In this document: positions 30,347-47,537 of the stretch, piece after piece
Layout: each line of letters begins with the position of its first letter
Numbering within the stretch: the first letter of the stretch is position 1
Assembly: GCF_017104565.1 (NCBI RefSeq)
Contig: NZ_JAAGPD010000001.1
Span: forward strand, 682,001-746,000
DNA length: 64,000 bases
From: Paraburkholderia sp. Tr-20389
GTDB lineage: Bacteria > Pseudomonadota > Gammaproteobacteria > Burkholderiales > Burkholderiaceae
Direction of reading: 5' to 3'
Translations under genes and position numbers: made by a program
The notes under the pieces: generated by a model
Seen by the model: the letters and a program-made list of their open reading frames with translations, nothing else
Told to the model about the DNA's origin: nothing
Database searches by the model: none

Positions 30347-30563
30347 GAGTAGCTCCATTTCGCAAAGATGCGAGAGACCCGCACGGTTGCCTGGCAGCAA
30401 CCGCGCTAGCGTCCGGTTAGTAGTCGGATAAGTCGACGTTGCATCGGCGATGCGGATGCGAACGGCTTCGTCGCGCAGCTCAGGCGCGAGTTTCACAATG
30501 CCGCTTGGGCACTACGACCTGGGAGAAGATTAGTGACGGGCGGACTTAAAGTCCTGATGACGG

Positions 30564-30581
30564 CCTTAATCGTTATTAAAG
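30564..30581 (-). promoter_or_regulatory. STAND box a: TTAA direct repeat upstream of the YcaC-like hydrolase
   Basis: The minus strand reads CTTTAATAACGATTAAGG, with two TTAA half-sites exactly 10 bp apart. A third TTAA lies 20 bp further (30546-30549) inside a GGACTTAAAGTCC palindrome. It is 218 nt from the hydrolase start. The spacing matches tandem binding by OmpR-type winged helices. Confidence 0.5.
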
Positions 30582-30603
30582 GCGCTTGATTAAGCCTGTG
30601 TGA

Positions 30604-33390
30604 TCAGGCGCGAGACTGAATGGCGACGACGTGCAGCGGTGCACGCGTGTTCGACGCATTGCGCGTCGTTGCTCGCCCGGCGCCATTGCGCTGCCCGCAT
30701 TCGAGCGAAGCCGCGAACCAGCGTTGCGCCTCGTCATGACGGCCGAGCGCGCGCAGCACGTCGCCCTTGATGCGGCACAACTCGGCGTTGTACCAGCGCT
30801 CGCCGTTGTCGTCGGCATGATGCAGCGCCTGTTCGATCGTATCGAGCGCGTCTCTTGCGCGCGCTTCGTTCGTCATCGCGACGGCGAGCTGGCCCAGCAA
30901 CGGCGAGAGCTGCGCAAGATAAGCCGTTGCGCGCAGCATGTCGATCGATACGGCGAGCCGCTCGACGGCGGCGCTTCCCGTTTCCATCAGCGTCATGAGC
31001 CATGCTTCATAGCACGCGCAACACGCACTCCAGATCGTGAAGCCGAAGCGCGTGGACAGTTCATGCAGCACGTCGATGCCATGCCGCGCCGCCGCGCGAT
31101 CGTTGTTCAGCAGCGCAATCGGCACCAGCGCTTCGACGAGCACATAGCAGGTGACCATTTCATGGTCATACTCGACAGCCGAATCGAAGCAGCGCGCGGC
31201 GAGATCGTAGGCATCGTCGCGTTGTCCCTGCACCCAAAGCACGCGCGCGAGCGTCGCCCGCGCGACGATGCCGTGATCGACGCGGAAGCCCGTCATGTGC
31301 CAGCGGCTCAGCGGCTTCGCTTCGTAGGCCGAGATCATCCGTTCGAGCAATTCGCGGGCGCGGCACTGGTCGCCCGTATAGTGCAACGCGATGCCTTCGA
31401 CGCGATCCGCGAGAACGGCGAGCGTCGCATGGCTGCCGCTGCGCGCGAGATCGCCGAAACGGCGCGCCAGCATCAGCGCATCTCGCGCGCGTCCGGCGTA
31501 TTGATGCCAGTTCCACACGCCCCAGCGCGCGCGTGATGCATAGTCGGGCTGACCGGCCCGCACTGCTTCATTCAGCACGAGCGTCCAGGCTTCGCGCGTT
31601 TCCGTCAGCGGACCTTCTGCATAAACGAGGGCCGCCGCCAGCGCCGACACCAGCCTCAGGCGCGTCTCGACACCGACGGTCGTGTCGTCCTCCTCCCGCT
31701 CCGCAATGAGCCGCAGTGCAGCGCGCGCACGGCTGCAACACTCGTCGACGAGCGAGAGGTCGTAGAGATAAGGCACGGTGACGGCGGCAAGCGCAATGCC
31801 CGTCGCGTGATCGCCGCGTGAGCCGAGCGTCCAGTCGAGCGCCGTGCGCACGTTGCCGAGTTCGCGCGTGAACTCGCCGAGCCATTCGACGACGGGCCGT
31901 TCGGCCCAACGCTTCTGGGCCGTTTCGAGCAGTTCGAGAAACAGCGTCGCGTGCGCGGCGGCGGCACGCGTGCGCTCGCCGTTGTCGTCGAGTTGCTGCT
32001 GCGCATACGCACGCGTCGTTTCCAGCAAACGATAGCGATAGGACGAGCCCTCGAAGTCCGTCGTCAGCAGCGAACGCGATACGAGGCCGCTCACGGCGTC
32101 GAGTGCTTCCATGCGCGCGAGCCCGGCGTGCCCTGCCATCGCACACGCGGCATCGAGCGTGAAGCCGTTGACGAAAGTACCGAGCCAGCGCAGCAGCTTC
32201 TGCTCGTCCTGGCCGAGCAGCCGGTAGCTCCAGTCGAGCGTCGCCTTGAGCGTCTGATGGCGCGGCAATGCCGTGCGCCGCCCGCCCGTGAGAATGCGGA
32301 AACGGTCGTCGAGATGTTCGGCCAGCAGGCCGATGCCGAGCACGGCGGCGCGCGACGCCGCCAGTTCGAGCGCGAGCGGAATGCCGTCGAGGCGGCGGCA
32401 CACTTCGCCCGTCAAGTAAATGGTGCTGTCGTCGAGCGAAAACTGCGCGCCGTCTGCCTGCGCGCGTGCCAGAAAGAAGCGCACGGCGTCCGTGCGCAGC
32501 ACGCCGGCGCCCGGTTCGTTCGCCGTCGGCACGGACAGCGGCGGCACCTGATACACGATCTCGTCGCGTACGCGCAGCGCCTCGCGGCTCGTCGCCAGCA
32601 CGCGCATGCGGCTGCCCGCGCCCGTCAGCGCCTCGGCCATCGCCGCGACGATCTCCAGCACCTGCTCGCAGTTGTCGAGCACCACCAGCGCGTCGCGCTC
32701 GCGCCATTCCGCGGCGATCTGCGCGAGCGCCGTGCGGCTCGCCGACAGACGGCTGCCCATCGCGAAGGCGAGTGCATCGAGCGCCGACTGCGCGTCATAC
32801 ACGGCGGCGAGCGGCACGAACACCACGCCATCGGCGAAATCCTGCTGGACGGCATGCGCGACTTCGACGGCAAGGCGCGTCTTGCCGATGCCGCCCGTGC
32901 CCACGAGCGTCACGGTCTGATGTTCGCGCAACGCGCTTTTCACACCGTCGAGCGCGTCCCGGCGGCCGATCAGTTCCGGCACGCGTACAGGCAGCGGCCG
33001 GCGCACGGGCCGGGCGGCCGGGCTGTTGACGGGCAGGCCGGCGTCCGCACTTTCAGCCGATGGTTCGCTTGCCGGTGCTGCGTGCGCGCCGGTGTCCGCC
33101 TGCAAGATCAGACGGTAGCCGCGTCCCGGTACGGTAGCGATGCGCTCGCGCTCGTCGCCGAACGCACGGCGCAGCGCGGAGATATGAACCTGAAGATTGT
33201 TCTTTTCGACGACCGTGGTCGGCCAGACGGCGCGCATGATCTCTTCTTTCGATACGACATCGCCATCGGCGGCAATCAGCAGCGCGAGAATGTCGAATGC
33301 GCGGCTGCCGATCGGCACCTTCCGCCCATCGAGACGCACGTCGCGATGATCGAGTGAAACCTCGAGTTGACCGATCCGGATCGTCGTCAT
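30604..33390 (-). CDS. STAND regulator A: OmpR winged helix, NB-ARC ATPase, TPR-like region
   Basis: A 928-residue regulator. Residues 1-95 are an OmpR/PhoB winged helix (SRAFDILALLI, recognition helix LQVHISALRRAF, TVPGRGYRLI). The ATPase starts at the Walker A GTGGIGKT (164-171), with Walker B ALVVLDNCEQVL and the helical GIPLALELAASRAAVLGIG segment. The C-terminal half (about 450-928) is Ala/Leu-rich helices of TPR-like spacing. STAND proteins bind an inducer through the repeats and oligomerise on ATP binding. ATG 33390 is used; there is no Shine-Dalgarno, and the frame extends to a TTG at 33426. Paralogues are at 34860 and 40353. Confidence 0.9.
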   Translation of the reverse strand: MTTIRIGQLEVSLDHRDVRLDGRKVPIGSRAFDILALLIAADGDVVSKEEIMRAVWPTTVVEKNNLQVHISALRRAFGDERERIATVPGRGYRLILQADTGAHAAPASEPSAESADAGLPVNSPAARPVRRPLPVRVPELIGRRDALDGVKSALREHQTVTLVGTGGIGKTRLAVEVAHAVQQDFADGVVFVPLAAVYDAQSALDALAFAMGSRLSASRTALAQIAAEWRERDALVVLDNCEQVLEIVAAMAEALTGAGSRMRVLATSREALRVRDEIVYQVPPLSVPTANEPGAGVLRTDAVRFFLARAQADGAQFSLDDSTIYLTGEVCRRLDGIPLALELAASRAAVLGIGLLAEHLDDRFRILTGGRRTALPRHQTLKATLDWSYRLLGQDEQKLLRWLGTFVNGFTLDAACAMAGHAGLARMEALDAVSGLVSRSLLTTDFEGSSYRYRLLETTRAYAQQQLDDNGERTRAAAAHATLFLELLETAQKRWAERPVVEWLGEFTRELGNVRTALDWTLGSRGDHATGIALAAVTVPYLYDLSLVDECCSRARAALRLIAEREEDDTTVGVETRLRLVSALAAALVYAEGPLTETREAWTLVLNEAVRAGQPDYASRARWGVWNWHQYAGRARDALMLARRFGDLARSGSHATLAVLADRVEGIALHYTGDQCRARELLERMISAYEAKPLSRWHMTGFRVDHGIVARATLARVLWVQGQRDDAYDLAARCFDSAVEYDHEMVTCYVLVEALVPIALLNNDRAAARHGIDVLHELSTRFGFTIWSACCACYEAWLMTLMETGSAAVERLAVSIDMLRATAYLAQLSPLLGQLAVAMTNEARARDALDTIEQALHHADDNGERWYNAELCRIKGDVLRALGRHDEAQRWFAASLECGQRNGAGRATTRNASNTRAPLHVVAIQSRA

Positions 33391-33548
33391 CTGATGGGGT
33401 GATGTTGAATACTGTGGAGCTTGCAACGGCCGTTGCGCAAACCTGCAAGGCTCACACTATACGATGCCAGGTCGACATGGGCTGTGAAGCGTGACAGCCA
33501 TGATGGGTGTGAGCGGATAAAGAAACGCGAAACAGTGTACAACGAACA

Positions 33549-33580
33549 AAAGCCGCCCTGCATGGCGCGCGGGCGGCTTT
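33549..33580 (-). terminator. Intrinsic terminator of the alpha/beta hydrolase gene
   Basis: Arms AAAGCCGCCC and GGGCGGCTTT with a 12-nt loop are followed on the minus strand by a TTTTGTT tail. It is 43 nt past the hydrolase stop, so that gene is probably monocistronic. Confidence 0.8.
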
Positions 33581-33622
33581 CGATACAGCGCATCGCAGCT
33601 CGCGCCGCAACGCTTCGGGTGC

Positions 33623-34618
33623 TTAGACCTTCAGGAACGACAGCAGATCGGCGTTGACCTGTTCGACATGCGTGCTGCACATGCCGTGCGGCGCGCCTGC
33701 ATAGACCTTCAGCGTCGCGTTCTTCACTAGCTTCGAGGCGAGCTTCGCCGAGTCGTCGATCGGCACGATCTGGTCGTCGTCGCCGTGCAGGAACAGCGTC
33801 GGCACGTCGATCTTCTTCAGGTCGTCCGTATAGTCGACTTCGGAGAACTGTTTGATGCACTCGTACTGGCCTTTGATCGAGCCTTCCATGCCCTGGCGCC
33901 AGAAGTCCTGGATCAGCCCTTGCGAAACCTTGGCGTTCGGGCGGTTGAAGCCATAGAACGGCGTCGCGAGATCCAGATAGAACTGCGAGCGGTTGGCGGC
34001 GACGCCTGCCCGGATACCATCGAATACGGACATCGCCAGGCCGCCGGGGTTGGCTTGCGTCTTCAGCATCAGCGGCGGCACCGCGCCGATCAGCACCGCT
34101 TTCGCGACGCGCTTCGAACCATGACGGCCGATGTAATGCGCGACTTCGCCGCCACCCGTCGAATGGCCGACCAGCATCGCGTTCTTCACGTCGAGGGCGT
34201 CGAGCACGGCGGCCAGGTCGTCCGCATAGGTGTCCATGTCGTTGCCGCCCGACGACTGACCCGAGCGGCCATGTCCGCGGCGATCGTGCGCGATCACGCG
34301 ATAGCCCTGGTTCACGAGGAACAGCATCTGCGGATCCCACGCATCGGCGCTCAGCGGCCAGCCGTGCGAGAAGACGACGGGCGTGCCCGTGCCCCAGTCC
34401 TTGAAGAAAATCTCCGTGCCGTCCTTCGCCTTCACGAAGCTGCCACCTTGGTGATGTACGCGCTGCGCGTGACCGCCCGTGGTCGCGCTGCTGGCCGTGC
34501 CCGCTGCATTGGCCGCGAGGCTCGACATGGCCGCCACGGCCCCCGCCATCGTCGCCCCTGCCGACAGCAGCCTGCGCCGCGATTCCGATGGTGCGGCCGT
34601 GTAGCTCTGCGTGCTCAT
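33623..34618 (-). CDS. Tat-exported alpha/beta hydrolase, non-heme haloperoxidase-like
   Basis: A 331-residue protein with a twin-arginine signal ([20 protein letters not shown]) and an alpha/beta hydrolase of the cofactor-free chloroperoxidase/arylesterase group. It shows oxyanion loop [14 protein letters not shown], nucleophile GHSTGGG, acid HGDDDQIVP and base GAPHGM. Export of such an enzyme is uncommon and suggests a periplasmic ester or lactone substrate. ATG 34618 has GGAG eight bases upstream. It has its own terminator (33549) and a TTAA direct repeat about 140 nt upstream. It lies between STAND regulators A and B. Confidence 0.9.
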
Positions 34619-34756
34619 ATGTTGTTCTCCGTCGTTGCATCGCATCGCGCAGGCTTGCGCGGCGATGGTGTTGTCGATGACCGGACACAGCCGGCAAGCC
34701 GGCTTGTCACGAGTGACGGAGCTTAACGATGTGTAACGCCAAAGTCCTTGCGTGCG

Positions 34757-34775
34757 GCTTAAACGTCCTTAAACG
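34757..34775 (-). promoter_or_regulatory. STAND box b: TTAA direct repeat upstream of the alpha/beta hydrolase
   Basis: The minus strand reads CGTTTAAGGACGTTTAAGC, a clean direct repeat of GTTTAAG with 10-bp period. A second imperfect pair (TTAA 34723, GTAA 34733) lies closer to the gene. An AGGACTTT word between them also occurs near box a. Confidence 0.55.
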
Positions 34776-34859
34776 CAGACAGGCGGTCCGCCGGGCACAA
34801 TGACGTTAAGGAATTTTCAGGCGAGGCTAGACAGTCGAAGCGATCAAACTAGACGCGCT

Positions 34860-37793
34860 TCACATGTCGCCGGCCATGACGGGCTGTCCGCTATCCGCAT
34901 CGAGATCGTGCGACTGGCGTGCCGCGCGTGCGTCGTGCAGCAGTTGCGCGAACCGGCGGATATCGGGCGCGTTCGATTGCACGTCGAGACGCGTGCCCAT
35001 GTCGGCAAGCAACGACGAAGCGCGTGCCGTCTCGCCCCGTTCGAGCAGATGATCCACGAAGTTCAGCACCGCGCGCAGTTCGAGCATCGGCGCATGCTGC
35101 TCTCTCGCCGTCTGCATCGCGTCGAGCAGATGGCGCCGCCCGTCCGTTTCGAACTCGTCGGCCATCGACGCGCGGCCGCTCGACTGGATCGCCCGCGCAT
35201 GCTCCAGTGCCGTCACGCCCTGCACGCGCTGCAACTCCGCGATGAAGAAATGCTCGCCATGCGCGTGGCAGTGCTCCAGCGCCTCGTCGAGCCGGGTCCG
35301 CGCCTCGGCGATGCGCCCCGTGCGCGTCAGCGCCTCCGCGCAGATCGCGATCGTCGGCGTCAATACGCGCCGGAAGCCGCACGACATCAAACGTTGCAGC
35401 GCCGGTTCGAGCTTCGCGAGACCGGCCTGCGGATGTCCCTGAAGAATATCGAGGTGACCCGCGTGACACTCGGCATACGCTTGCCAGATTTCGAAGCGGT
35501 TCAATGCGACCTGCGATTGCAGCACAGCGAGATAGCGCGATGCCGTTTCGAGTTGGCCGCATTGCAGCGCGATGGGCACGGCGGCCACCGCCAGCACGTG
35601 ACTGAGCGACGGCTCCAGCATGTCGGGCCGAATCGAATTGACGATCTTCTCGACGAGCTGCATCGCCTGCTCGGGATGCCCCTGCATCCACACGATCCGC
35701 GCGAGCGTGCCGTTGCCGAAGTTGAACGGATCGACGGGAAGGTCGACGCAATCCGTCGCGGCCGCGCCGAGTTCCGTCAGCCCAGCGATGGCCCGCTCCA
35801 GCCGCGCCCGCGCCTGCTCCTGCTCGCCGAAGCAATGCAGCGAGACGGCGATCATCTCGGCGCCGAGTATCTGCTGCCACGGCGTGCCGCAACGCTCCGC
35901 AAACGCCTGGAAGCGCGTCGCGAAGCGGAACGACGCGTGTATGTCCGAACACGCGAGCGTCGAATTCCATGCACCCCATAGCGCACGCGCCTCGAAGGCC
36001 TCGTCGCGTGCCTCGCGCGCGAGCACCAGCACGCGTTTCCACAATGGGGCCGCCTCGTGTATCGCGCCGCCCGCATGCAACAGCGTCGATGCATACGCGG
36101 AACACAAGCGCATTTCGCAGAGCGTGTCCACGGAACCGGGCGGCAGTGCGTCGAGCGCTGCCAGCGCGCGTCCCGAACGCTCATGACATTCGTGCAGCAG
36201 CGCGCCCTGCATCAGGGTGCCCACGAGCGAGCCCGCCAGCGCGACGCCAAGCGCCGCATTGCCGCCCGGCGAGAACGCCCATTCGAAAGCGGCACGCGCG
36301 TCGTCGAGCGCGAGGCGTGGCTCGGCGGCGGGAAGTCCCTGCGCGGTATCGCCGACAGGCATCTTGCCGTGCTCGATCCGCTCTTGCAGGTACTGCATGT
36401 GCCGCGACGCGATGCGCTGCAGTTCGCCTTCGTCGCGCAGCTTTTCCATCGCATAGGCGCGCGTCGATTCCGTCAGCCGGTATTGCGCGATCGCGCCGTA
36501 GAACTCGACGGACAACAGCGACTTGGTGGCCAGTTCGCTCAGGCTGGAGATAACGGCCGCGATGGGCATGTCGGGCTCGGTGGCGACGGTGCAGACGGCG
36601 TCGAACGTGAACGCGCCCGCGAAGAAGCCGAGCCGCCGGAACAGCATCCGCGAAGTCGCGTCGAGCAACGCGTAGCTCCAGTCGAAGGTCGCGCGCAGCG
36701 TCTGATGGCGCGGCAGCGCCGAGCGCAGGCCGCCCGTCAGCAGATTCAGGCGATCGTCGAGGCGCGACGCCACGCCTTCGACGCCGAGCGTCGCCACGCG
36801 CGCGGCCGCGAGTTCGATCGCAAGCGGAAGGCCTTCGAGCCGCCGGCAGATTTCGCCGATGAGTCGTATGGCATCTTCGTCTGCCTCGCATTCGGGCGCG
36901 ACCGACTTCGCCCGGTTCAGAAACAGTTCGACGGCCGAATGCGCGAGGATCGCGCTGATAGAGGCGTGGTTCGCGGAATCGATCGCGGGCACCGCGAGCG
37001 GCTCGACGCGAAACACCGACTCTGCCCAGATATGCAAGGGCTCACGGCTCGTCACCAGCACGCGAAGCGCATGGGCGCGCGCGGTGAGCGCTTCGACGAG
37101 CGTCGCGATCACGTCGATCACGTGCTCGGCATTGTCGAGTACGAGCACGCACGGCGCCGCAGCAAGCACGTCGGCGAGGCGCTCCTGCGTCAGATATTCG
37201 TCGGAGGCGTCGATCCGCAATGCGCCCGCGAGCGTCTTCAGCACGGCCTCGCGCGTCGACGCCCTCGCCAGTTCGACGAAGCACACCGGCTCGCCGAAGC
37301 GGTCGCGCATCTCCCGCGCGACATGAACGGCGAGACATGTCTTGCCGATGCCGCCCGCGCCGATCAGCGTGACGACGGAGGCCTGTCCCAAACGGTCGAC
37401 GATCTGCGCGACTTCTATGTGACGGCCGACCAGCGTCACCGGGCAGGCAGGCAGTCCGCCGCTCGACGGCGTGCCGCTCTGGCGCTCCGCCGCGCGCGCG
37501 TGACGGCTCTCCGACACGAGCATATAGCCGCGTCCCGGCACGGTCTTGATGAGTTCGCGGTCCGCGCCGAACAGCTTGCGCAGCGCCGCGATATGCACCT
37601 GAAGCCGGTTCTCTTCGACGATGGAACCCGGCCACACGGCATCCATGATCGCGTCCTTCGACACGATGCCGCCGTCCGCGCGATACAGCACTTCGAGAAT
37701 GTCGAAAGCACGGGCGCCGATCCGCACCGGTCGGCCCTGCTGACGAATCTCTCGCTGTTCGAAGTTGACGAGCAATGTGCCGATCTGAATCAT
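34860..37793 (-). CDS. STAND regulator B: OmpR winged helix, NB-ARC ATPase, long TPR-like region
   Basis: A 977-residue paralogue of regulator A. It has a winged helix at 1-95 (ARAFDILEVLYRADG, recognition helix LQVHIAALRKLF, TVPGRGYMLV), Walker A GAGGIGKT near 145, Walker B PCVLVLDNAEHVI and GLPLAIELAAARVATLGVEG. From about residue 420, Ala/Leu-rich repeats (RLALDDARAAFEWAF, then many ELGAAATD-like helices) run to the end. ATG 37793 has GGAG just upstream. The frame continues to 37955 without support. It diverges from an AraC gene across about 490 bp. The inducer is unknown. Confidence 0.9.
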   Translation of the reverse strand: MIQIGTLLVNFEQREIRQQGRPVRIGARAFDILEVLYRADGGIVSKDAIMDAVWPGSIVEENRLQVHIAALRKLFGADRELIKTVPGRGYMLVSESRHARAAERQSGTPSSGGLPACPVTLVGRHIEVAQIVDRLGQASVVTLIGAGGIGKTCLAVHVAREMRDRFGEPVCFVELARASTREAVLKTLAGALRIDASDEYLTQERLADVLAAAPCVLVLDNAEHVIDVIATLVEALTARAHALRVLVTSREPLHIWAESVFRVEPLAVPAIDSANHASISAILAHSAVELFLNRAKSVAPECEADEDAIRLIGEICRRLEGLPLAIELAAARVATLGVEGVASRLDDRLNLLTGGLRSALPRHQTLRATFDWSYALLDATSRMLFRRLGFFAGAFTFDAVCTVATEPDMPIAAVISSLSELATKSLLSVEFYGAIAQYRLTESTRAYAMEKLRDEGELQRIASRHMQYLQERIEHGKMPVGDTAQGLPAAEPRLALDDARAAFEWAFSPGGNAALGVALAGSLVGTLMQGALLHECHERSGRALAALDALPPGSVDTLCEMRLCSAYASTLLHAGGAIHEAAPLWKRVLVLAREARDEAFEARALWGAWNSTLACSDIHASFRFATRFQAFAERCGTPWQQILGAEMIAVSLHCFGEQEQARARLERAIAGLTELGAAATDCVDLPVDPFNFGNGTLARIVWMQGHPEQAMQLVEKIVNSIRPDMLEPSLSHVLAVAAVPIALQCGQLETASRYLAVLQSQVALNRFEIWQAYAECHAGHLDILQGHPQAGLAKLEPALQRLMSCGFRRVLTPTIAICAEALTRTGRIAEARTRLDEALEHCHAHGEHFFIAELQRVQGVTALEHARAIQSSGRASMADEFETDGRRHLLDAMQTAREQHAPMLELRAVLNFVDHLLERGETARASSLLADMGTRLDVQSNAPDIRRFAQLLHDARAARQSHDLDADSGQPVMAGDM

Positions 37794-38280
37794 GGCCTCT
37801 CCAGCAAACGCTGTTCGCGAATTCGATGGACCGATGGTGTGCACCTGGTTGAAGGTCGGGGATCGGGCGTGCGTGTCGTCGCCGCGAGCGTGTTCATTGG
37901 CTGCGCGTATTGCGCCGTCACGCGGCCCACTAATTGGGCTGTGTCGACAGGGCAAATGGGCGGGTTAAAACAGAAATATCTGAAAGAGATTGTAAACAGG
38001 CCGTCACCAAGTGTCTTGAATAATAGTGACCTGATTAGACATTGTGAGGACTTTTTTGCCGTTCTGAGGCCGGCTTCACATCTTGCGCATTGCGTCCGGG
38101 TAACATCCGCAAGCAGGCAAATTCAGCCAAAATAGCCGCCCGCTCAAAGCACGGGAATCGTCCCGGCATATGGACATATAAGCCGGCAAACACACTTTGA
38201 TTAATTTGGCCATGTTTTTCTTCAGTGTAAACTGGCGCCGATTATGTTTCACTGGCAATGCATGAATCGAGGAAATGCCC
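37794..38280. other. AT-rich divergent promoter region between STAND B and AraC gene
   Basis: No gene is visible. The stretch 37930-38240 is the most AT-rich large segment in this half of the window, consistent with promoters and possible silencer binding. It has no TTAA pair with 10-bp spacing. Confidence 0.45.
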
Positions 38281-39195: not shown

Positions 39196-39414
39196 ACGCG
39201 CGCGTCGCGACGGTGTGTTGCTGTTCGAATGCAACGTGACGATGCAGGTCATCCCCGCGTGGGGTGTGCGAAACGGCCTCGCATCGATTGCCGAATCGCA
39301 CGCTCATGCCTGCGTCCGGCAAACGGCAAACAATGGATTCATGTATTGCGCCAACACGCGCGCGACTGCATGCTATCGGCGACGATCCATTGAACGCTTC
39401 ACACGACGCCATTC

Positions 39415-40335
39415 ATGAACCTCTCTTTCGAAGTCCTCCAGGCACTCGACGCGATCGATCGCACGGGCACGTTCGCCGCCGCTGCGGAAGAACTGCACAA
39501 AGTCCCGTCGTCGTTGACGTATCTCGTGCAGAAGCTGGAGGTCGATCTGGGCGTCAAGCTGTTCGAGCGCAGCGGGCGCCGCGCGAAGCTCACGCATGCG
39601 GGCCGTGTGATCGTCGAGGAAGGGCGGCGCCTGCTCGAAGCCGCTCGCGAACTCGAACAGAAAGCGAAGCGCATCGAGCACGGCTGGGAGTCGGAGTTGC
39701 GCGTGGCCGTCGACGAGATCATTCCATTCGATCTGATCTGGCCTCACGTCACCGACTTCTACAAGCTCAATCTCGGCACGCGGCTGCTGTTGTCGAAAGA
39801 AACGCTCGGCGGAACATGGGATGCGTTGATCACGCGGCGCGCGGATCTTGTCGTGGGCGCAGCGGGCGATCCGCCGCCCATCGCCAATCTCGTCGCGAAG
39901 CCGATCGGCTCGCTGAAACATGCGTTCGTGGTCGCACCCGGCCATCCGCTGGCGTCGGCTGCCGAACCATTGACGATCGACACCGTCGCGCGTCATCGCG
40001 CGGTCGCGATCAGCGATACGTCGCGCAAGCTCGCGCCGCGCACGATCGCACTCGCCGCCAATCAGGAAGTGCTCACCGTGCCGACGCTCGACGCGAAGCT
40101 CGCCGCGCAGATCAAGGGCCTGGGCGTGGGGACGGTGCCCGAGTGTATCGCGGCGGGACCGATCAATCGCGGCCAGTTGGTACGCAAGGAAGTCTGCGGC
40201 ATGCGCGACGTCACGCAGTTCTTTCTTGCATGGCGCGACGACGAAGCAGGCAAGGCGCTACGCTGGTGGGTCGATCAACTCGACCGGCACGATCTCATCG
40301 ACGATGTCGCGCAACGTCTCGCGGTCATGGGGTGA
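39415..40335 (+). CDS. LysR-family regulator
   Basis: A 306-residue LTTR with the winged helix at residues 5-65 (TGTFAAAAEELHKVPSSLTY, KLFERSGRRAKLT) and the effector domain beginning ELRVAVDEIIPFDLIWPHV near 95. The sensor resembles the DUF-free YhaJ/AllS-type group by eye, but this is weak. It stands between the AraC gene and STAND regulator C. No obvious divergent target is next to it, because regulator C is convergent. Confidence 0.9.
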   Translation: MNLSFEVLQALDAIDRTGTFAAAAEELHKVPSSLTYLVQKLEVDLGVKLFERSGRRAKLTHAGRVIVEEGRRLLEAARELEQKAKRIEHGWESELRVAVDEIIPFDLIWPHVTDFYKLNLGTRLLLSKETLGGTWDALITRRADLVVGAAGDPPPIANLVAKPIGSLKHAFVVAPGHPLASAAEPLTIDTVARHRAVAISDTSRKLAPRTIALAANQEVLTVPTLDAKLAAQIKGLGVGTVPECIAAGPINRGQLVRKEVCGMRDVTQFFLAWRDDEAGKALRWWVDQLDRHDLIDDVAQRLAVMG

Positions 40336-40352
40336 GCGCTGCGCTCAACGCT

Positions 40353-42359
40353 TCATGCGTACTTGCTCGACGGCATGAAGCTCAAAAGCCGCGTCGACGC
40401 ATCGGCACGCCGGCGCTCGCCTGATGCGCCGACCGGCTTCTGCACCAACCCTTTCGCTTGCAACAGCAATTGCCCTGCGTCCTTGAAGTCGTCGAAGTCG
40501 TCGAAGTCGCGGCCTTCGCACACATTCGCACATGCCGAATGCAGCAGTTGCGCAGCGCGCGCCTCGAATGTCTCGTCGCCCGACTCCAGCACCTCTTTCC
40601 AGATCGCATGTGTCTCGGCATTGGGCCCGTGTACGAGCACAAGCGACGCGCCGAGCGCCGCAAGTAGACGCACCCGCGCGCGCATGCGCGTCGACGCGCA
40701 ATCTGAGTCGTGCGTGGCCGGCAACGCAGCGAGCGAGCGCCGCGCCCACACGCAGCACTCGTCGATCAGCGACAGCTCATGGAACAGAAAGACGGCATTG
40801 ACAGGCAACGTGTCGCGCAACGCCTCGTCGCCATCATCGGACAACACCCACGCAAGCGCAGCGCGCACCTCGTCGAGCAGCGCCGGCATCCGGCTGCGCC
40901 AGCTTTCGCCAGCCGTCTTTCCCGCTGAGCCGCCATCAATCAGCCCCGACAGATAGCGCGCGTGATTCAGCGCGACCATGCGCCGTTCGCCGTTGTCGTC
41001 GAGCTTTTGCAGCGCGTACATACGCGTCGTCTCCAGCAGGCGGAACGCAGCATGGCCCGGCTCCGTGCTTGCAACCACCAGCGACTTCTCGACCAGCGAC
41101 GCCATCGCGACGACCACATCGAGTTCGCGCAACACGCTGTCCGCTGCAACGGCAATCGCGGCTTCGAGCGGAAAGCGGTCGGCGAACAGACCGACACGGC
41201 GCAGCGTCTTGCGCTCGGCTTCGTCGAGCAGCGCATGACTCCAGTCGAGCGTCGCCTTGAGCGTCTGATGGCGCGGCAGCGCGGTGCGCGTGCCGCCCGT
41301 CAACATGCCGAAGCGGTCGTCGAGATGGGCAGCAAGCGTATCGATGCCGAGCACCGCCGCGCGCGCGGCCGCGAGTTCGATCGCAAGCGGAATGCCGTCG
41401 AGCCGCCGGCACACCATGCCCGTCACGTGGATGCTCGGCTCGTCGGCGGCGAAGCGCGCGTCGATCGCCCGCGCGCGCATCAGGAACAGGCTGACGGCGC
41501 TGCTGCGCAATACCTGCGGCGTGTCGTCGTTCGGCTCGGGCACGTCGAGTGCGGGAACCCAGTACAAGGTCTCGGATGGAATGCGCAACGGTTCACGGCT
41601 CGTCGACAGCACGCGCAACTGCGGACACGCGCTCAACAGATGGTGTGAAAGGTGCGCAGCGGCGTCGACCACATGCTCGCAGCTATCGAGCACGATCAGC
41701 ATGCGCCGGCCGCCGATCGCTTCGACGAGGCGTTCGCGTGTCGAGTCACAGCCATCGGGATGCACGCCGATCACGGATGCGAGCATCGCCAGCACGCCGC
41801 ACCTGTCCGACGCCGCGCTCAGCGAAACGAAATGAACACCGCCGGGCGCATGATCCATCAGGCGGCGCGCGACCTCGATCGCGACGCGTGTCTTGCCGAT
41901 GCCGCCCGAGCCGAGCAGCGTCACGTGACTCGCTTTGCCGAGCGCATCGCACACGTGAGCGATCTCTTCATCGCGTCCGACCAGCGCAGAGCTGAATGCA
42001 GGCAGGTTGTGCGGCACGGCCGTTCGCCGCTCGACATTCGCGGTCTTTTCGTCGGCACGCTGTACGGTCGCCGCGCCGCGCACGAGCCGGTAACCACGAC
42101 CCGGAATGGTCTTGATCAGGTCGCGGCTGTCGCCGAGCAGCTTGCGCAGCGCCGACATGTGCACCTGAAGATTGTTGTCGCCGACCACCGTTTCGGGCCA
42201 CACGCGCTCCAGAATCGCGTCCTTCGACACCAGCCCGCCTTGCGCCTCGATCATCAATTCGAGTATGTCGAAGGCACGATTACCGATGCGCACCGTCTTG
42301 CCGTCGACACGCGCTTCACGGCGCGCAAGATCGATGTCGAGCGGTCCAATGCGGATCAT
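40353..42359 (-). CDS. STAND regulator C: OmpR winged helix and NB-ARC ATPase, short C-terminus
   Basis: A 668-residue paralogue of regulators A and B. It has a winged helix at 1-95 (NRAFDILELMIEAQG, recognition helix LQVHMSALRKLL, TIPGRGYRLV), Walker A GSGGIGKT near 150, Walker B MLIVLDSCEHVV and GIPLAIELAAARAAVLGID. It ends about 260-310 residues earlier than the others, soon after the first few helical repeats. It may therefore sense a different ligand or none, or it may be a truncated copy. ATG 42359 is used. Its end is 17 bp from the convergent LysR stop. Confidence 0.9.
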   Translation of the reverse strand: MIRIGPLDIDLARREARVDGKTVRIGNRAFDILELMIEAQGGLVSKDAILERVWPETVVGDNNLQVHMSALRKLLGDSRDLIKTIPGRGYRLVRGAATVQRADEKTANVERRTAVPHNLPAFSSALVGRDEEIAHVCDALGKASHVTLLGSGGIGKTRVAIEVARRLMDHAPGGVHFVSLSAASDRCGVLAMLASVIGVHPDGCDSTRERLVEAIGGRRMLIVLDSCEHVVDAAAHLSHHLLSACPQLRVLSTSREPLRIPSETLYWVPALDVPEPNDDTPQVLRSSAVSLFLMRARAIDARFAADEPSIHVTGMVCRRLDGIPLAIELAAARAAVLGIDTLAAHLDDRFGMLTGGTRTALPRHQTLKATLDWSHALLDEAERKTLRRVGLFADRFPLEAAIAVAADSVLRELDVVVAMASLVEKSLVVASTEPGHAAFRLLETTRMYALQKLDDNGERRMVALNHARYLSGLIDGGSAGKTAGESWRSRMPALLDEVRAALAWVLSDDGDEALRDTLPVNAVFLFHELSLIDECCVWARRSLAALPATHDSDCASTRMRARVRLLAALGASLVLVHGPNAETHAIWKEVLESGDETFEARAAQLLHSACANVCEGRDFDDFDDFKDAGQLLLQAKGLVQKPVGASGERRRADASTRLLSFMPSSKYA

Positions 42360-42618
42360 GAGCGGATAGCGCAGGCATGCGCGCGCCACGCTTCACGGCG
42401 CGCGCCGCTGATTACGATTGGACAGGTACCGCTGGTCGAGCAGGACACGATGCGTAGCATGCGGCATACCGGTTGATGTGCTTGGCAGTCTAGAACGGCT
42501 CGGCTCGCGCATGGGTGGAAAAATCCGAACGATCCGTTCGAAAATTTTGAAGTCGGTGCGCGGGCATCCAGCAACACAGCGCGTCTGCGTAAGCGAGCAC
42601 ATCCGTCACGTGCGATCG

Positions 42619-43611
42619 TCATCGTCGCGGCGCGGCGTCGTAGTTGACGGGCACCCACTGATACGTCGCGCCGTCTTTGCGGATATGCCCGACACCCGGA
42701 AACGCGACATGCGCGGCGGCGACGAGATCGCGCCGTCCGGCAACGAGATCCAGCATGTCGCGCCGTGCGCGCTTCGCGTCGGCGGCGTCGCTGTCGTATT
42801 CGACGGAGGCCTGCGGGTGCTGCAACTGGATCGCCGCCACGTGCACGATGTCGCCCCACACGACGAGCCGTTGCGACGCGCTCTCGACGACATACGCACT
42901 GTGCCCCGGCGTATGACCGGGTACGACGAGCGCGCGTATGCCCGGCTCGATCGTCACATCGTTGCCGCTGAACGGCTTGAAGCGCCCTGCCGCGACATAC
43001 GGCGCAACCGATGCGCTCGCACTGTCGAAGAAGCTGCCGAGAAAGGCGGGCGCCTTCGACCTGTTCGCGGGATTGAGCCAGTAGTCGGCTTCGGCCTGGC
43101 TGGTTCTAACGACGGCGTTCGGAAACGTCATCGCACCATTCGTCACGATGCCGCCCACGTGATCCTTGTGCAGATGCGTGAGCAGCACTTCATCGACGTC
43201 TTCGGGACGGTAACCCGACGCGCGCAGATTTGCGATCACCTTGCCGCAGCAATCGCCGTACAGCACGCCTGCGCCGGCATCGATCAACACGAGCTTCGAT
43301 CCCGTGTTGATCAGGAACGCGTTGATCGACCCCTGCACGGGCGCTTGCAGGAACTCGCGGTCGAGATCGCGCTGGATATCCGCTTTCGACACGCCTTGCA
43401 CGACGGTATCGATCGGGAACGGATGCGTGCCATCGGAAAGCGCCGTCACTTCCAGATCGCCTGCCGTCATCCGGTAGAAGCCGGGCGCTTGCGTGCCGGC
43501 CATCGGCGCGGCAGCGAATGCATCGACTGGCAAAGCCGCCGCACCGCACATGCACGACACGAACAGACACGCGCGCAGCCATGCTGCGCGCCATGCGTGA
43601 AGACTCTTCAT
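42619..43611 (-). CDS. Exported metallo-beta-lactamase-fold hydrolase
   Basis: A 330-residue MBL protein with a signal peptide (WLRACLFVSCMCGAAALPVD, cleaved near AFAAAP). The zinc motif is THLHKDHVGG, followed by His in VVPGHTPGHSAYV and Asp in VVWGDIVHVAA, placing it with lactonase/quorum-quenching-like MBLs. The insert around the Cys-Cys pair (YGDCCGKVIA) is unusual. ATG 43611 is used; the extended frame to 43665 lacks support. It follows the flavoprotein by 72 nt, with TTAA box c in that gap. It may hydrolyse a lactone or ester in the periplasm; substrate is unknown. Confidence 0.88.
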   Translation of the reverse strand: MKSLHAWRAAWLRACLFVSCMCGAAALPVDAFAAAPMAGTQAPGFYRMTAGDLEVTALSDGTHPFPIDTVVQGVSKADIQRDLDREFLQAPVQGSINAFLINTGSKLVLIDAGAGVLYGDCCGKVIANLRASGYRPEDVDEVLLTHLHKDHVGGIVTNGAMTFPNAVVRTSQAEADYWLNPANRSKAPAFLGSFFDSASASVAPYVAAGRFKPFSGNDVTIEPGIRALVVPGHTPGHSAYVVESASQRLVVWGDIVHVAAIQLQHPQASVEYDSDAADAKRARRDMLDLVAGRRDLVAAAHVAFPGVGHIRKDGATYQWVPVNYDAAPRR

Positions 43612-43671
43612 GGGTTCTCTCTCACTCGCTTCGACATGCGCCGAAGCATAGCGAGTCCCACGCACAGCGGC

Positions 43672-43690
43672 GGCTAATTGTTCTTAAATG
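43672..43690 (-). promoter_or_regulatory. STAND box c: TTAA/TTAG direct repeat upstream of the MBL gene
   Basis: The minus strand reads ATTTAAGAACAATTAGCC, half-sites 10 bp apart with one mismatch. It overlaps the flavoprotein stop codon and is 62 nt from the MBL start. Confidence 0.4.
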
Positions 43691-45414
43691 TTCTGTGCCG
43701 CCGTGTTGTATTGCGCGAGATACGCATGAATCTGACTGACGACGGCCGCGCCGTCGCCCACCGCGGACGCCACGCGTTTCGTCGATTCGGAGCGCACGTC
43801 ACCCACCGCGAACATGCCGGGCAGACTCGTTTCGAGCGGATAGTGAATGCCGATATCGACGTGTGTCTGCGTGCGCCGCGCAAAGCCCGTCACGACAAAG
43901 CCGCGGCTATCGAGTTCGACGCCGCTCGACGCGAGCCAGTCTGTCTTCGGATCCGCGCCGATGAAGAGAAACAGATGGCGCGTTTCGATGATCTCGTCGT
44001 CCTCGCCTTCGCGCCGCACGTGAACGTGTGTCAGCCCGGCTTCATCTCCTTCGAGCGTCTTCAACGTGCAGCGCGTGCACACGGATACGTTGGGCAGCGA
44101 GCCGATCCGGTCGATCAGATACTTCGACATGCTCGCGTTCAGGTCCGCGCCGCGAATCAGCACGCGGATGCTGCGCGCGAAGTTGGCGAGAAACACGGTC
44201 GCTTGCCCCGCCGAATTACCGCCGCCCATCAGCACGATGTCCTGGCCTTTGACGAGCTTGGCCTCGATGGGCGACGCCCAGTAGTAGGTGCCGCGTCCTT
44301 CGTAACGGTCGAAGTCCGCGACGACGGGTTTCCGGTATGCCGCGCCGCTCGCGACGACGAGCGTGCGCGCGCTGACCTGCTGGCCGTCCATCAGCGTCAG
44401 CGCATAGGCGCCGTCCTGCGTATCGACGTTCATCACCTTGCCGGGTATCGCCAGATGCGCGCCGAACTTCAGCGCCTGCTGGAACGCGCGCGCCGCGAGC
44501 GCCTGGCCCGAGATGCCCGTCGGAAAGCCCAGATAGTTTTCGATGCGCGAACTCGCGCCTGCCTGGCCGCCCGGCGCACGCTGATCGAACACGGCAACCG
44601 ACAGACCCTCCGTGGCCGCATAGACGGCGGCAGCGAGTCCCGCAGGCCCGGCACCGACGATCGCCACGTCGTAGATGTGCGAGCGTTCGAAGGTCGGCAC
44701 GAGACCGAGGCATGACGCGAGCTGCGCTTCGTCGGGTGCGCGCAGCACGGAGCCGTTCGGGCAGAACACGAGCGGGAAGTCGTCAGGGCCCGTCGTGATG
44801 TCCGACAGCAGCGTCGCGGCTTCGACGTCATGGCGTGCGTCGATCACCATCGCGGGATATGCATTGCGGCGCAGAAAACCCTGCAATCTGACCAGCCGCG
44901 CATCGTCGCCGTTGCCGACGATGATCGGCCCCAGTCCCTGTTCGATCAGACCCAGCCGGCGAAGAATCAGCGCGCGCATGATGTGCTCGCCGAGTTGCGC
45001 ATCGGCGACGATCAACGCACGCAATTTTTCCGGCGAGACCACGAGCGTTTCGCAATCGGTCAACGCAACGCCGTCGATCAGCGCGGGCTTGCCCGACAGT
45101 TGCGCCATCTCGGCCATGAAATGCCCGTCGTCGTGTTCTGTCACGAGCGTCGAGCGGCCGAAGCTGTCGCGCGAAAAGATCCGTACGCGCCCATGCAGCA
45201 GCACGAACAGCCCCAGCGCAATGCGGCCTGTTTCGAAGATCAGCGCGCCCGCCTTGAACGACATCGGCTGCGCGAAGCGGCGCAGGCTGCCGATTTCCGC
45301 AGCGGACAGCCGCGGAAACATCTGATGCTGGCGATACTCCAGCGACGAATAGGGCATCGCCAGGTCCGGCGCGGCCGCATCGGGCGAGGTAGAGAGAAGT
45401 GCCGGGGTATTCAT
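43684..45414 (-). CDS. cNMP-like domain fused to thioredoxin-reductase-type flavoprotein lacking the redox CxxC
   Basis: A 576-residue fusion. Residues about 32-150 form a cyclic-nucleotide-type beta roll, but the cassette Arg is missing (GKPALIDG where PRxA is usual). About 170-235 is a receiver/thioredoxin-like spacer. FAD binding starts near 250 (VAIVGAGPAGLAAAVYA), NAD(P) binding near 395 (IVLMGGGNSAGQA), and the FAD-closing GMFAVGDVRS lies near 540. Where thioredoxin reductase has its CxxC there is GTYYWASPIEA, so no dithiol exchange is expected; a flavin oxidoreductase or sensor role is likelier. ATG 45414 is used. It follows the HD-like gene by 42 nt. Confidence 0.88.
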   Translation of the reverse strand: MNTPALLSTSPDAAAPDLAMPYSSLEYRQHQMFPRLSAAEIGSLRRFAQPMSFKAGALIFETGRIALGLFVLLHGRVRIFSRDSFGRSTLVTEHDDGHFMAEMAQLSGKPALIDGVALTDCETLVVSPEKLRALIVADAQLGEHIMRALILRRLGLIEQGLGPIIVGNGDDARLVRLQGFLRRNAYPAMVIDARHDVEAATLLSDITTGPDDFPLVFCPNGSVLRAPDEAQLASCLGLVPTFERSHIYDVAIVGAGPAGLAAAVYAATEGLSVAVFDQRAPGGQAGASSRIENYLGFPTGISGQALAARAFQQALKFGAHLAIPGKVMNVDTQDGAYALTLMDGQQVSARTLVVASGAAYRKPVVADFDRYEGRGTYYWASPIEAKLVKGQDIVLMGGGNSAGQATVFLANFARSIRVLIRGADLNASMSKYLIDRIGSLPNVSVCTRCTLKTLEGDEAGLTHVHVRREGEDDEIIETRHLFLFIGADPKTDWLASSGVELDSRGFVVTGFARRTQTHVDIGIHYPLETSLPGMFAVGDVRSESTKRVASAVGDGAAVVSQIHAYLAQYNTAAQNI

Positions 45415-45456
45415 CGATCAACCTTGACTGAATGTTCTGATGTGGCGGGCATCCGC

Positions 45457-46098
45457 CTAGTTCGGCCACTCCGATCCCAGCACCAGCCCGCAGAAATTGA
45501 GGCGCCGGTAGTCCGGATCCCATCGGTCGAGCACGTCCGCGTTGACGGTGCCGAAAGTCGTCTCGGGACGATGCTCCATGCCGCGCGCGTACGCTTCGAT
45601 CAGCTTCGTCTTGAAGCCGCGTTCGCGCGGAAACGCCTGCACGATGGCGTCGCGCTGTTGCGAAGTGAACTCGAAATAGCGTGTGCCTCGTATGTCCATC
45701 TGCACGCCCGCGCTGACGAGCAACACGAGCGCGGACATGTGGTCGGGAATGCCCGGCGTGGTATGCAGCGCAATCGCGTTCCAGACATCTTCCGCCGCGA
45801 ATTCGTCGACGCCACGTCCGAGCAGGAACTCGCGGGCTTCGTTCGCGCTATCGACCTCGAACCGGTTCGGCGAACGGCTGTAGCGCATGTGCAAGCCGAC
45901 GTTGTGGAATAGCGTGCCGACATAGAGCAGGTCCGGATCGAATTCGAGCGCCTCCCTGACGCCCGTCAGAGCAGCGAACAGAAATGCACGCAGCGCGTGA
46001 TGCAACAGCAGTTCGGATTCGATGCCGCGAACGTGATCGAATGCGGCCCGGGCCAGCGCGGTCTCGGGTATGTCGACGCCGGCAATATTCCTGTTCAT
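45457..46098 (-). CDS. HD-superfamily-like protein (paralogue 2)
   Basis: A 213-residue homologue of the protein at 26634-27296, sharing NAIALHTTPGIP, TFGTVNADVLDRWDP and NFCGLVLGSEW. The metal doublet reads HN (H65-N66 in LFHNVGL) instead of HD; paralogue 1 has TN. Both belong near the cyanamide-hydratase-like HD group. ATG 46098 has GGAGGAG. It is first in an apparent operon with the flavoprotein and MBL gene, and box d lies about 110 nt upstream. Function is unknown; the intact His here may retain some metal binding. Confidence 0.8.
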   Translation of the reverse strand: MNRNIAGVDIPETALARAAFDHVRGIESELLLHHALRAFLFAALTGVREALEFDPDLLYVGTLFHNVGLHMRYSRSPNRFEVDSANEAREFLLGRGVDEFAAEDVWNAIALHTTPGIPDHMSALVLLVSAGVQMDIRGTRYFEFTSQQRDAIVQAFPRERGFKTKLIEAYARGMEHRPETTFGTVNADVLDRWDPDYRRLNFCGLVLGSEWPN

Positions 46099-46643
46099 CC
46101 AGTCTCCTCCGCGCCGGACGATGCCCCGGCCATATGCTCCCGTGCAGCCGGCTCTTCCGACGCATCGTGCAGCGTAGCAATACGGGGTAGAGAATACTTT
46201 GTCGGATCATTAAAAAACCTTAATACGTACGGTGAATTTACGTGCTTCACGTTCAGACGGGGCTCGCTTTTCCGGTTCGACATGCGCTGCCTATGCGCTC
46301 GACATCGCGCGGCGCGCGCGACGAAACAGATCGCGCTTTCACTAAACACGTTGCTGCATGCGATGCGCGCGCGGGCACATCGCGCGCGGCTCCCGGCTTT
46401 AAATTTTCTGAAACGCGCGCCGTCCGGGCGGTCACGCTTTGCGGCCCCCGTCGACAGGAAAAGATGCAGCGCGTGAACCCATCCACCTATACCAACGTAT
46501 GAAGTGTTGACTACCTGGATTAAGCGGGCGTCCCAACGTACGATGGTCCATTCGTTCGCCTCGTTCTATCTTTCTCTCAAGCGGTGAAGCGTCATATTCC
46601 GCACCAGAGAAAACAGATCGGACAGCACGAGGTGAACGGTTTC
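46099..46643. other. Intergenic region with box d
   Basis: About 545 bases between divergent genes. Only box d is recognisable. Short frames here have no coding-like features. Confidence 0.45.
46208..46225 (-). promoter_or_regulatory. STAND box d: TTAA direct repeat upstream of HD-like paralogue 2
   Basis: The minus strand reads GTATTAAGGTTTTTTAATG, TTAA half-sites 10 bp apart, in a T-rich setting. Confidence 0.45.
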
Positions 46644-47087
46644 ATGGACAAGATCTTGAGCATGCGCATCTTCTCGCGCGCCGTATCGTCGCTCGAAGAC
46701 CATCTGCAGGCGAGACTCCTGCAACGGACGACGCGCAAGATATCGCTGACGGAACCCGGCGAGCGCTACTACCAGAAGTGCAAGAAGATTCTCGCGGACC
46801 TCGAAGATGCCGAGGCCGAAGCGGGCGCAGGCGTCGCGGCATTGCCCGTGCACTGCGTGACCGACGACATCCGCGACGGCAGGCCGGTGCAGTTGTTTCC
46901 CGAATCGCGCCTTCAAAATACGGGCGTATTTGCCGTTTATTCAAGCAGGCATCACATCGACGCGAAGATCAGGACGTTTATCGAGTTTCTGACTTCGCAC
47001 CTGAGAGCCGCGCTCGACAGCCGTCTTTTCAACGAGCACTCCAATCAGACCTTCGGTTGTCTCGCGCGCGTAGTGGAGAATGCATGA
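46644..47087 (+). pseudogene. LysR relic with two internal in-frame deletions
   Basis: The 147-residue frame begins like a LysR protein (MDKILSMRIFSRAV) and then jumps to SSLEDHLQARLLQRTTRKIS. The residues that should form the helix-turn-helix between them (about 25-30) are gone. After the linker (KKILADLEDAEAEAG) it jumps again to a late effector-domain segment (GVAALPVHCVTDDIRDG) and ends with the usual HIDAKIRTFIEFLTSHLR. Roughly half the normal 300 residues are missing, yet the frame is intact. DNA binding is not expected. The stop overlaps the start of the next gene (ATGATG). Confidence 0.7.
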
Positions 47088-47437: not shown

Positions 47438-47537
47438 ATCGAACCGCACGCGCCTGCGTGGCGCTCGCCGTATCTTCGCCGATACGCTCCGTTACCTCGC
47501 TGGATCCGGCATCTCTGCGCTACGGCCGCGCGCACTC

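Follow-up and report, generated by a model that had tools for sequence, protein, structure and literature searches.

Winged helices of the OmpR/PhoB type read tandem half-sites spaced 10-11 bp apart, and MalT, a transcription activator, reads DNA through a C-terminal domain of the LuxR type. The half-sites of KdpE have likewise been described as such a tandem. An ATP-driven STAND core and a sensor made of helical repeats are common to MalT and other TPR-sensor STANDs (PMC6468293). AfsR and the large SARPs of Streptomyces unite an OmpR-type DNA-binding domain, a nucleotide-binding oligomerisation domain and a TPR region, and the afs box consists of two 11-bp repeats that are centred at -29.5 and overlap the -35 element (PMC10936776).

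Here we analyse a gene cluster from a 64-kb stretch of DNA of a soil Paraburkholderia (the window), in which the STAND proteins A, B and C stand beside genes for small hydrolases (Table 1). The locus resembles AfsR in that a presumed STAND-type activator is paired with a direct-repeat operator adjoining a poor promoter. It differs from AfsR in that no BTA domain was reported after the winged helix in STAND A, B or C (Pfam, E 0.001), and in that the putative operators are repeats of 10 bp with centres close to -52.5 or -42.5, reckoned from the -10 hexamer, instead of 11-bp repeats at -29.5; the NCBIfam AfsR model matched the ATPase part of STAND A and B weakly, far under its cut-off. The Trans_reg_C winged helix, which Pfam reports in the STANDs of the cluster, is common to OmpR/PhoB-type response regulators, CadC/ToxR and KdpE, and the solved structures related to STAND A by sequence are those of response regulators, CadC and PhoB. 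What sets the STANDs apart from the OmpR/PhoB regulators is the STAND ATPase to which this winged helix is fused and the lack of any receiver-domain match in Pfam; unlike MalT, the STANDs carry their DNA-binding domain, of OmpR type, at the N-terminus. The literature search, which left most subscription journals outside, returned no proteobacterial OmpR-type winged-helix STAND with a described operator. One winged-helix regulator that it did return is of the MarR type and unrelated (PMC13101487).

The gene cluster and its paired half-sites

All three STANDs possess the P-loop G-x-G-G-I-G-K-T that is expected of a STAND ATPase core, and match NB-ARC in Pfam (E-values of 2e-05, 4.3e-09 and 3.4e-05 in A, B and C). 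In the C-terminal sensor region a TPR_19 match occurs in STAND B alone, weak and under the cut-off. The recognition-helix region is the same at most positions in A, B and C, and across 151 rows, which include alphaproteobacterial ones, it is well conserved, not near-invariant. Three of the enzymes match NCBIfam models at scores under the cut-offs, which are curated ones for the first two: hydA the YcaC model (5.2e-43), the MBL hydrolase AidB (5.9e-59) and the HD protein TIGR03401 (2.5e-08). A GTG further upstream, which would give hydA 261 aa, is disfavoured as its start because relatives show indels upstream of the ATG in the alignment. Since a gap of 42 bp separates them, the HD gene and the oxidoreductase gene downstream probably lie on one transcript.

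Table 1. Genes, putative operators and promoter hexamers of the cluster (positions in the window)
Feature	Position	Strand	Remarks
hydA, YcaC-like isochorismatase-fold hydrolase	29711..30346	-	211 aa; Pfam PF00857 3.2e-28 on longer 29711-30496 frame
hydA -10 hexamer TAATCT	30527..30532	-	37 nt after second half-site start
hydA -35-position hexamer AGGACT	30550..30555	-	non-consensus
hydA putative operator TTAATAACGATTAA	30566..30579	-	YcaC-like hydrolase promoter
STAND A, with winged helix, ATPase of NB-ARC type and C-terminal region	30604..33390	-	928 aa; Pfam, scanned as 30604-33426
hydB, alpha/beta hydrolase	33623..34618	-	Arg-rich signal-like N-terminus; Pfam PF00561 3.1e-34
hydB -10 hexamer TAAGCT	34720..34725	-	37 nt after second half-site start
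hydB -35-position hexamer AGGACT	34743..34748	-	
hydB putative operator TTAAGGACGTTTAA	34759..34772	-	alpha/beta hydrolase promoter
Extra half-site pair TTAAGGAATTTTCAGG	34806..34821	+	strand opposite to hydB operator; no -10 hexamer at proper distance
STAND B	34860..37793	-	977 aa; Pfam, scanned as 34860-37955
AraC-type regulator gene	38344-39195		adjoins STAND B
STAND C, short form	40353..42389	-	678 aa; Pfam
MBL-fold hydrolase, AidB-lactonase-like	42619..43611	-	signal-peptide-like N-terminus; Pfam PF00753
MBL -10 hexamer TATGCT	43645..43650	-	27 nt after second half-site start
MBL putative operator TTAAGAACAATTAG	43674..43687	-	TTAA-N6-TTAG
Cyclic-nucleotide-binding domain fused to thioredoxin-reductase-like FAD oxidoreductase	43684..45414	-	Pfam
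HD-domain protein, cyanamide-hydratase-like	45457..46098	-	Pfam PF01966
HD -10 hexamer TACGCT	46171..46176	-	TG-extended; 37 nt after second half-site start
HD -35-position hexamer AAGTAT	46194..46199	-	
HD putative operator TTAAGGTTTTTTAA	46210..46223	-	HD gene promoter
Extra half-site pair TTCAGAAAATTTAA	46399..46412	-	far upstream of HD gene

An earlier, sequence-only reading of this DNA had proposed pairs of TTAA half-sites in four promoters, and rechecking the letters located all of them where it had placed them (30564-30581, 34757-34775, 43672-43690 and 46208-46225), including the TTAA-N6-TTAG variant of the MBL promoter. Its remark that TTAA is scarce here also holds: base composition predicts about 70 copies, and 28 are present. 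The window holds three exact copies of TTAA-N6-TTAA (30566, 34759, 46210), where 100 dinucleotide shuffles give a mean of 0.02 and a maximum of 1. The genome scan that it had called for returned 10 places in 9.0 Mb, three of them in this window; the probability that at least three of ten genomic copies fall inside a given 16 kb is 7e-7, uncorrected for the pattern having been picked after being seen. A matrix from 13 promoters, from which the window and near-orthologous clusters were excluded and in which distant homologues of the hydB and HD promoters were still included, puts the four sites at ranks 1-4 in the 64 kb (25.4-29.9 bits); the fifth score is 21.8, at the extra pair far upstream of the HD gene, and the top score of 10 shuffled windows is 17.4. 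Rfam gave no family at gathering score across 29000-47500.

A feature that the earlier description did not contain is the promoter geometry, with a -10 hexamer 37 or 27 nt away and AGGACT at the -35 position. Each of the four promoters has a TANNCT -10 hexamer at a constant distance downstream, which is 37 nt from the start of the second half-site in hydA, hydB and HD and one turn shorter in MBL (27 nt), where no -35 element is present. Taking the -10 hexamer as -12 to -7, the half-sites lie at about -59/-49 in the former three and at -49/-39 in MBL. Both half-sites share one strand, in TTAAG/TTAAG order with TTCA variants on the gene strand, and form direct repeats as OmpR/PhoB-type regulators use them.

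Elsewhere in this genome the pattern lacks such surroundings. None of the seven remaining exact copies has a -10 hexamer at offsets of the 37/27 type; these copies score at most 16.4 and 13 further matches to a relaxed pattern at most 13.1, whereas the four sites under study reach 31.2-36.4, all with a matrix that was built partly on near-orthologues of the window. A wider regulon in this genome was considered and set aside, no further exact copy or relaxed-pattern match showing the promoter geometry; the relaxed pattern would miss sites of the MBL or HD kind.

Conservation and co-occurrence with STANDs

Relatives were sampled as 60 stretches around STANDs (L109-L168; 974 kb), drawn from 29 of 35 STAND genomes from the best STAND matches downward among 122 places altogether, with the weaker ones mostly left out; some of the stretches are the second half of a cluster, without a STAND. 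In this set TTAA pairs 10 bp apart, start to start, number 28, and every other distance from 3 to 45 yields 0-6. Because this peak comes from relatives' DNA not seen beforehand, it answers the objection that the pattern was chosen post hoc. All 28 pairs are intergenic by our own gene calling, as are 58 of 58 matches to a matrix whose training set overlapped with these stretches; shuffled copies give 5. Among -10 matches, 13 of 19 take offsets of 36-39 or 27-28 (46 offsets tested; 71 oriented sites reduced to 47 groups), and several relatives' sites are without any -10 hexamer; in our -35 listing of relatives, rows L169, L174 and L175 are off by one base.

Comparison of orthologous promoters, as the first reading had suggested, found that near relatives retain the operator, the usual variant of its half-site being TTCA. 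The hydA operator is retained in seven aligned near-orthologous promoters; an eighth (L154, 96% hydA), which is not among the hand-chosen aligned rows, is without it, and so is genome G013, despite its STANDs and a hydA of 96% identity. The hydB homologues L053, L063 and L154 contain no TTAA pair at a comparable place even when one mismatch is allowed, and several MBL and HD homologues have no TTAA pair at all. In the HD alignment the 16 bp operator window ranks first of 315 for conservation; for hydA, hydB and MBL, other stretches are better conserved than the operator (ranks 74, 36 and 87 of 315). The plant symbiont Paraburkholderia phymatum STM815 has all four sites, one with a TTCA half-site. 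A link of the locus to plant-symbiosis expression in P. phymatum was considered and set aside: one article names an operon, Bphy_5790-92, with a beta-lactamase-domain protein and a reductase (PMC8305402), but its tags could not be tied to this locus.

Of 59 genomes sampled from the genus, 35 encode STANDs whose winged helix is of OmpR type, at 1 to 11 matches per genome. A degenerate motif, built from STAND-linked sites, is present in 13 of these 35 genomes and in none of 24 STAND-less ones (Fisher 4e-4, kinship uncorrected), and is absent from the other 22 STAND genomes. It has 17 matches, seven of which are separated from any STAND by over 10 kb or are on other contigs; four of the seven have a homologue of the same hydrolase downstream and the -10 hexamer in place. 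Taken alone, the STAND-distant matches fall in six genomes, all with STANDs (chance about 0.04); a reversed control motif gave seven matches in six genomes, two of which have STANDs. Eight further motif places comprise five with a -10 hexamer at 38 and a downstream homologue of hydA (4) or hydB (1), two where the hexamer is missing (L172, L173), and one with the hexamer at 27 and no known target (L171).

The regions upstream of hydA and hydB homologues point the same way: 18 of 42 in STAND genomes and 0 of 18 in STAND-less genomes score at least 18 (p 5e-4), which leaves 24 of the 42 below that score. A good -10 hexamer is found in 8 of the 18 passing regions and in none of the other 10. This comparison covers 45 of 68 hydA matches and 15 of 119 hydB matches, the latter hand-picked; the hydA matches left out are 11 at 40-43% identity, a partial one at 51% and 11 covered by other loci (G000, G001, G006, G008, G012, G013, G020, G032:C42, G042, G043, G053). 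Outside the genus, 32 alphaproteobacterial STAND loci yielded two weak matches (shuffled 1), neither with a -10 hexamer.

Candidate binders and probable mode of action

Sites, spacing, -10 geometry, conservation in near relatives and co-occurrence with STANDs are all outcomes of the computation, and we consider it likely, judging from sequence, that the pairs are activator operators of a small hydrolase regulon bound most probably by STAND winged helices. The sequence-only reading had called them operators of the STAND regulators. Their status as operators has stood up, the sites being intergenic, conserved, at a fixed distance from the -10 hexamer and found before homologous genes elsewhere, and what connects them to the STANDs as binders is an association.

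The alternative that survives best, which we still regard as unlikely, is an unlinked regulator that happens to co-occur with STANDs, such as an OmpR-type response regulator or an isolated 112 aa winged-helix protein (G000:C102). Spacing and position would suit any OmpR-type winged helix, and this wHTH-only protein, which the genome does encode, is 51% identical to the winged helix of STAND A; however, a free regulator should leave sites in STAND-less genomes, where none of the 18 hydrolase upstream regions has one. The AraC-type regulator beside STAND B is a less probable binder still. AraC proteins, too, read two boxes one helical turn apart beside the -35 element, the gene is part of the cluster, several relatives have it close to hydB, and all 23 AraC-bearing genomes also have STANDs. 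It is nevertheless missing (E 1e-60) from G029, G032, G057 and G058, all of which have sites, and HD, MBL and hydA genes that lie on other contigs have sites before them as well. The cluster's LysR is disfavoured as binder, being missing (E 1e-100) from G008, G018, G021 and G032, all with sites.

No more credible than the AraC protein is the idea that the STANDs bind in order to repress, or to anchor an inactive oligomer. At the MBL site a repressor would be placed to obstruct the -35 region, but the -35 hexamers are poor and the hydA, hydB and HD operators lie upstream of them; activation is favoured since an operator upstream of a poor -35 is the usual activator position. Chance clustering of AT-rich intergenic words, for which the after-the-fact choice of pattern and the higher A+T content of intergenic DNA might speak, has next to no probability and is taken as refuted by the spacing, the conservation, the -10 distance and the recovery of sites before homologous genes on other contigs.

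For STAND-bound operators we infer the following scheme, and with it any assignment of individual STANDs to promoters. The TTAA pairs would be direct-repeat operators of a single activator-dependent promoter type, on which two OmpR-type winged helices would occupy neighbouring TTAAG half-sites, separated by one helical turn, and either lie immediately before a poor -35 (AGGACT or AAGTAT; none in MBL) or cover it. The bound activator, most likely a STAND of the cluster, would recruit sigma70 RNA polymerase to the TANNCT hexamers. In its ADP form the STAND would be closed and monomeric. The C-terminal sensor region would respond to an inducer, and oligomerisation in the ATP state would pair the winged helices. 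The output would comprise YcaC-like, alpha/beta, AidB-like MBL and cyanamide-hydratase-like HD hydrolases and a thioredoxin-reductase-like enzyme, a set that appears suited to the breakdown of small molecules.

A possible common operator code for NLR-like sensors

We tentatively speculate, while holding the opposite to be somewhat more probable, that several NLR-like STAND sensors with diverged sensor halves and alike recognition helices converge on one operator code. If so, many chemical inputs would be wired to common detoxifying hydrolases through duplication of sensors and not of promoters; hydrolase genes unlinked to STANDs would also come under the common code, and STAND C, in genomes that have lost the MBL gene, would be controlled by an operator of its own. 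A defined operator would make the STAND regulon readable from sequence and, together with the fixed promoter geometry, would provide a ready reporter to screen for inducers of an NLR-like bacterial activator. In relatives, the paired TTAA signal accompanies this little-known family of sensors, which are similar to immune receptors.

Half-site pairs and promoter geometry

The sequence-only reading had claimed that TTAA half-sites lie 10 bp apart in promoters of the region encoding the STAND regulators A, B and C. This holds: the window contains three exact TTAA-N6-TTAA copies against 0.02 expected, and the MBL site is TTAA-N6-TTAG, as had been noticed. A scan of the 9.0 Mb genome, which it had proposed, found ten exact copies, including these three. 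Since the pattern had been chosen by eye, we examined its spacing outside the window, in 974 kb of sequence from 29 relatives (60 stretches surrounding STAND homologues). There, distance 10 accounts for 28 TTAA pairs, all of them intergenic, and each other distance from 3 to 45 for 0-6. The site consensus is TTAA(G/T)AAC-R-W-TTA(A/G)G (32 rows, all selected for a TTAA pair and many related). Several orthologues carry TTCA in place of TTAA on the gene strand, suggesting direct rather than inverted half-sites. PhoB/OmpR operators have a half-site spacing resembling that of the TTAA pairs.

Read toward the gene, a TANNCT hexamer begins 37 nt past the start of the second half-site at hydA, hydB and HD, and 27 nt past it at MBL; at the seven other genomic TTAA-N6-TTAA copies, checked in both orientations, TANNCT was absent from such offsets. 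When the sites of the window and its relatives are collapsed to 47 groups, 13 of 19 hexamer matches over 46 offsets fall at offsets 36-39 and 27-28. The -35 position is occupied by AGGACT in hydA and hydB and by AAGTAT in HD, and the MBL promoter has no -35-like element; of the 25 promoters listed, 16 have AGGAC at this position or within one base of it. Judged by their sequence, the four promoters look activator-dependent.

Second half-site pairs, lacking a -10 hexamer at the right distance, recur among relatives in several promoters of hydB and HD genes. Between its -10 hexamer and its ATG, hydA has a leader of about 180 nt; the seven aligned rows show strong conservation of this leader, which has no Rfam match.

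The gene cluster and its relatives

The cluster matches Paraburkholderia second replicons, best pBPHY01 of P. phymatum STM815 (89.7% identity, 95% covered), where all four sites are present with the -10 distances of the window.

Features of the cluster in window positions; gene starts are from our own gene caller
Feature	Position	Strand	Remark
Second half-site pair, HD promoter	46399-46412	minus	TTCAGAAAATTTAA
HD gene	46098-45457	minus	
Thioredoxin-reductase-like FAD protein	45414-43684	minus	cyclic-nucleotide domain; next after HD gene
MBL gene	43611-42619	minus	
STAND C	42389-40353	minus	short form, 678 aa
LysR gene	39415-40335	plus	
AraC gene	38344-39195	plus	
STAND B	37793-34860	minus	
Second half-site pair, hydB promoter	34806-34821	plus	TTAAGGAATTTTCAGG
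hydB	34618-33623	minus	alpha/beta hydrolase
STAND A	33390-30604	minus	
hydA leader	30347-30526		
hydA	30346-29711	minus	YcaC-like
Amidohydrolase gene		minus	after hydA in cluster order

Comparison with orthologous promoters supported the pattern among near orthologues, but many of the more distant homologues lack the site. It is kept in seven of eight hydA promoters of genes at least 96% identical, the window counted (L154 is without it), in all four aligned hydB rows, in four of five aligned MBL rows, with a similar pair in three of the more distant ones, and in 9/9 HD rows, seven of them with TTCA. At hydB, L111 and L113 have the TTCA form, whereas the homologues L053, L063 and L154 show no site. 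No MBL gene was found in genome G042, where the promoter of the MBL type precedes STAND C instead, nor by our gene caller at the STM815 locus. At L112 5141 and L238 16121-16568, where no MBL gene was found, its promoter and operator are still present before STAND C. This retention suggests that STAND C has its own operator.

The final third present in STANDs A and B is missing from STAND C, and the corresponding open frames in near relatives measure about 630-680 aa. A genome search with STAND A returned no full-length relatives beyond A, B and C. An open frame of 112 aa (G000:C102:106184-106480, L010) has a winged helix 51% identical to that of STAND A and no ATPase; it could possibly compete or cooperate with the STANDs at these operators. 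The AraC and LysR genes of Paraburkholderia largidicola are separated by genes for HlyD, outer-membrane efflux and FUSC proteins (L237 10447-15327), which are absent from the window.

Association of the sites with STAND proteins

We looked for a degenerate motif derived from STAND-linked sites, and for STANDs themselves (E 1e-80), in 59 Paraburkholderia genomes, 35 of which have STANDs. The motif gave 17 matches in 13 genomes, all 13 among these 35; a reversed control gave seven matches in six genomes, two with STANDs. The motif's derivation makes proximity to STANDs likely, and ten of the 17 matches are indeed no more than 10 kb away from one. The remaining seven are spread over six genomes, 6/6 with STANDs (chance about 0.04 by our own arithmetic, indicative because kinship among genomes is ignored). 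Eight further motif places were fetched, and five have a -10 hexamer at 38 and a downstream hydA (4) or hydB (1) homologue, three of them on contigs without a listed STAND (G006:C5, G012:C12, G008:C2). Upstream of further hydA/hydB homologues, a matrix score of at least 18, a value reached by 0.3% of shuffles, occurs in 18/42 cases in STAND genomes versus 0/18 in STAND-less ones; a good -10 accompanies only 8 of these 18 sites. G051, whose hydA is 87% identical with a stop in its frame, has neither STAND nor site. The AraC and LysR genes are each missing from several genomes that have sites. The claim that the sites are STAND operators draws on this association, in which motif matches and hydA/hydB upstream sites are confined to STAND genomes, and from which we infer binding by one or more of A, B and C.

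In the recognition-helix region VEENNLxVHxxALRK, more than 90% of 151 winged-helix rows agree at four positions and more than 60% at most others; the rows include alphaproteobacterial STANDs with motif-less loci, so that helix conservation by itself is not enough to define the code. The motif was not found in 22 of the 35 STAND genomes or at alphaproteobacterial STAND loci, and G013 has STANDs and hydA with no site, so that other STAND clades have either a changed code or different targets. The sequence TTAACAACATTTCA, common to two Rhizobiales STAND loci (L080 5734, L090 5756), lies about 250 bp ahead of the STAND match and may be a diverged operator. Several hydA homologues of about 50% identity (L190, L191, L192, L193, L194, L205) share a second element of the GGAAT...ATTCC kind past the operator place; two of them, L192 and L193, come from STAND-less genomes.

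Proposed mechanism and enzymes

According to PMC10936776, the STAND activator AfsR carries an OmpR-type domain and acts on direct repeats, a combination also predicted here from sequence. Unlike SARPs such as AfsR, the STANDs of the window have no reported BTA domain, and repeat length and position differ; they are not SARPs.

Most likely, a ligand would activate the STAND proteins, which would oligomerise, driven by ATP; their winged helices would bind in tandem at -59/-49, or -49/-39, and recruit sigma70 polymerase to these promoters, whose -35 elements are poor. The enzymes of the cluster are YcaC-like, alpha/beta, AidB-lactonase-like, cyanamide-hydratase-like and thioredoxin-reductase-like, each best match falling below its curated cut-off. 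This set suggests that they may degrade some small molecule, either reactive or foreign.
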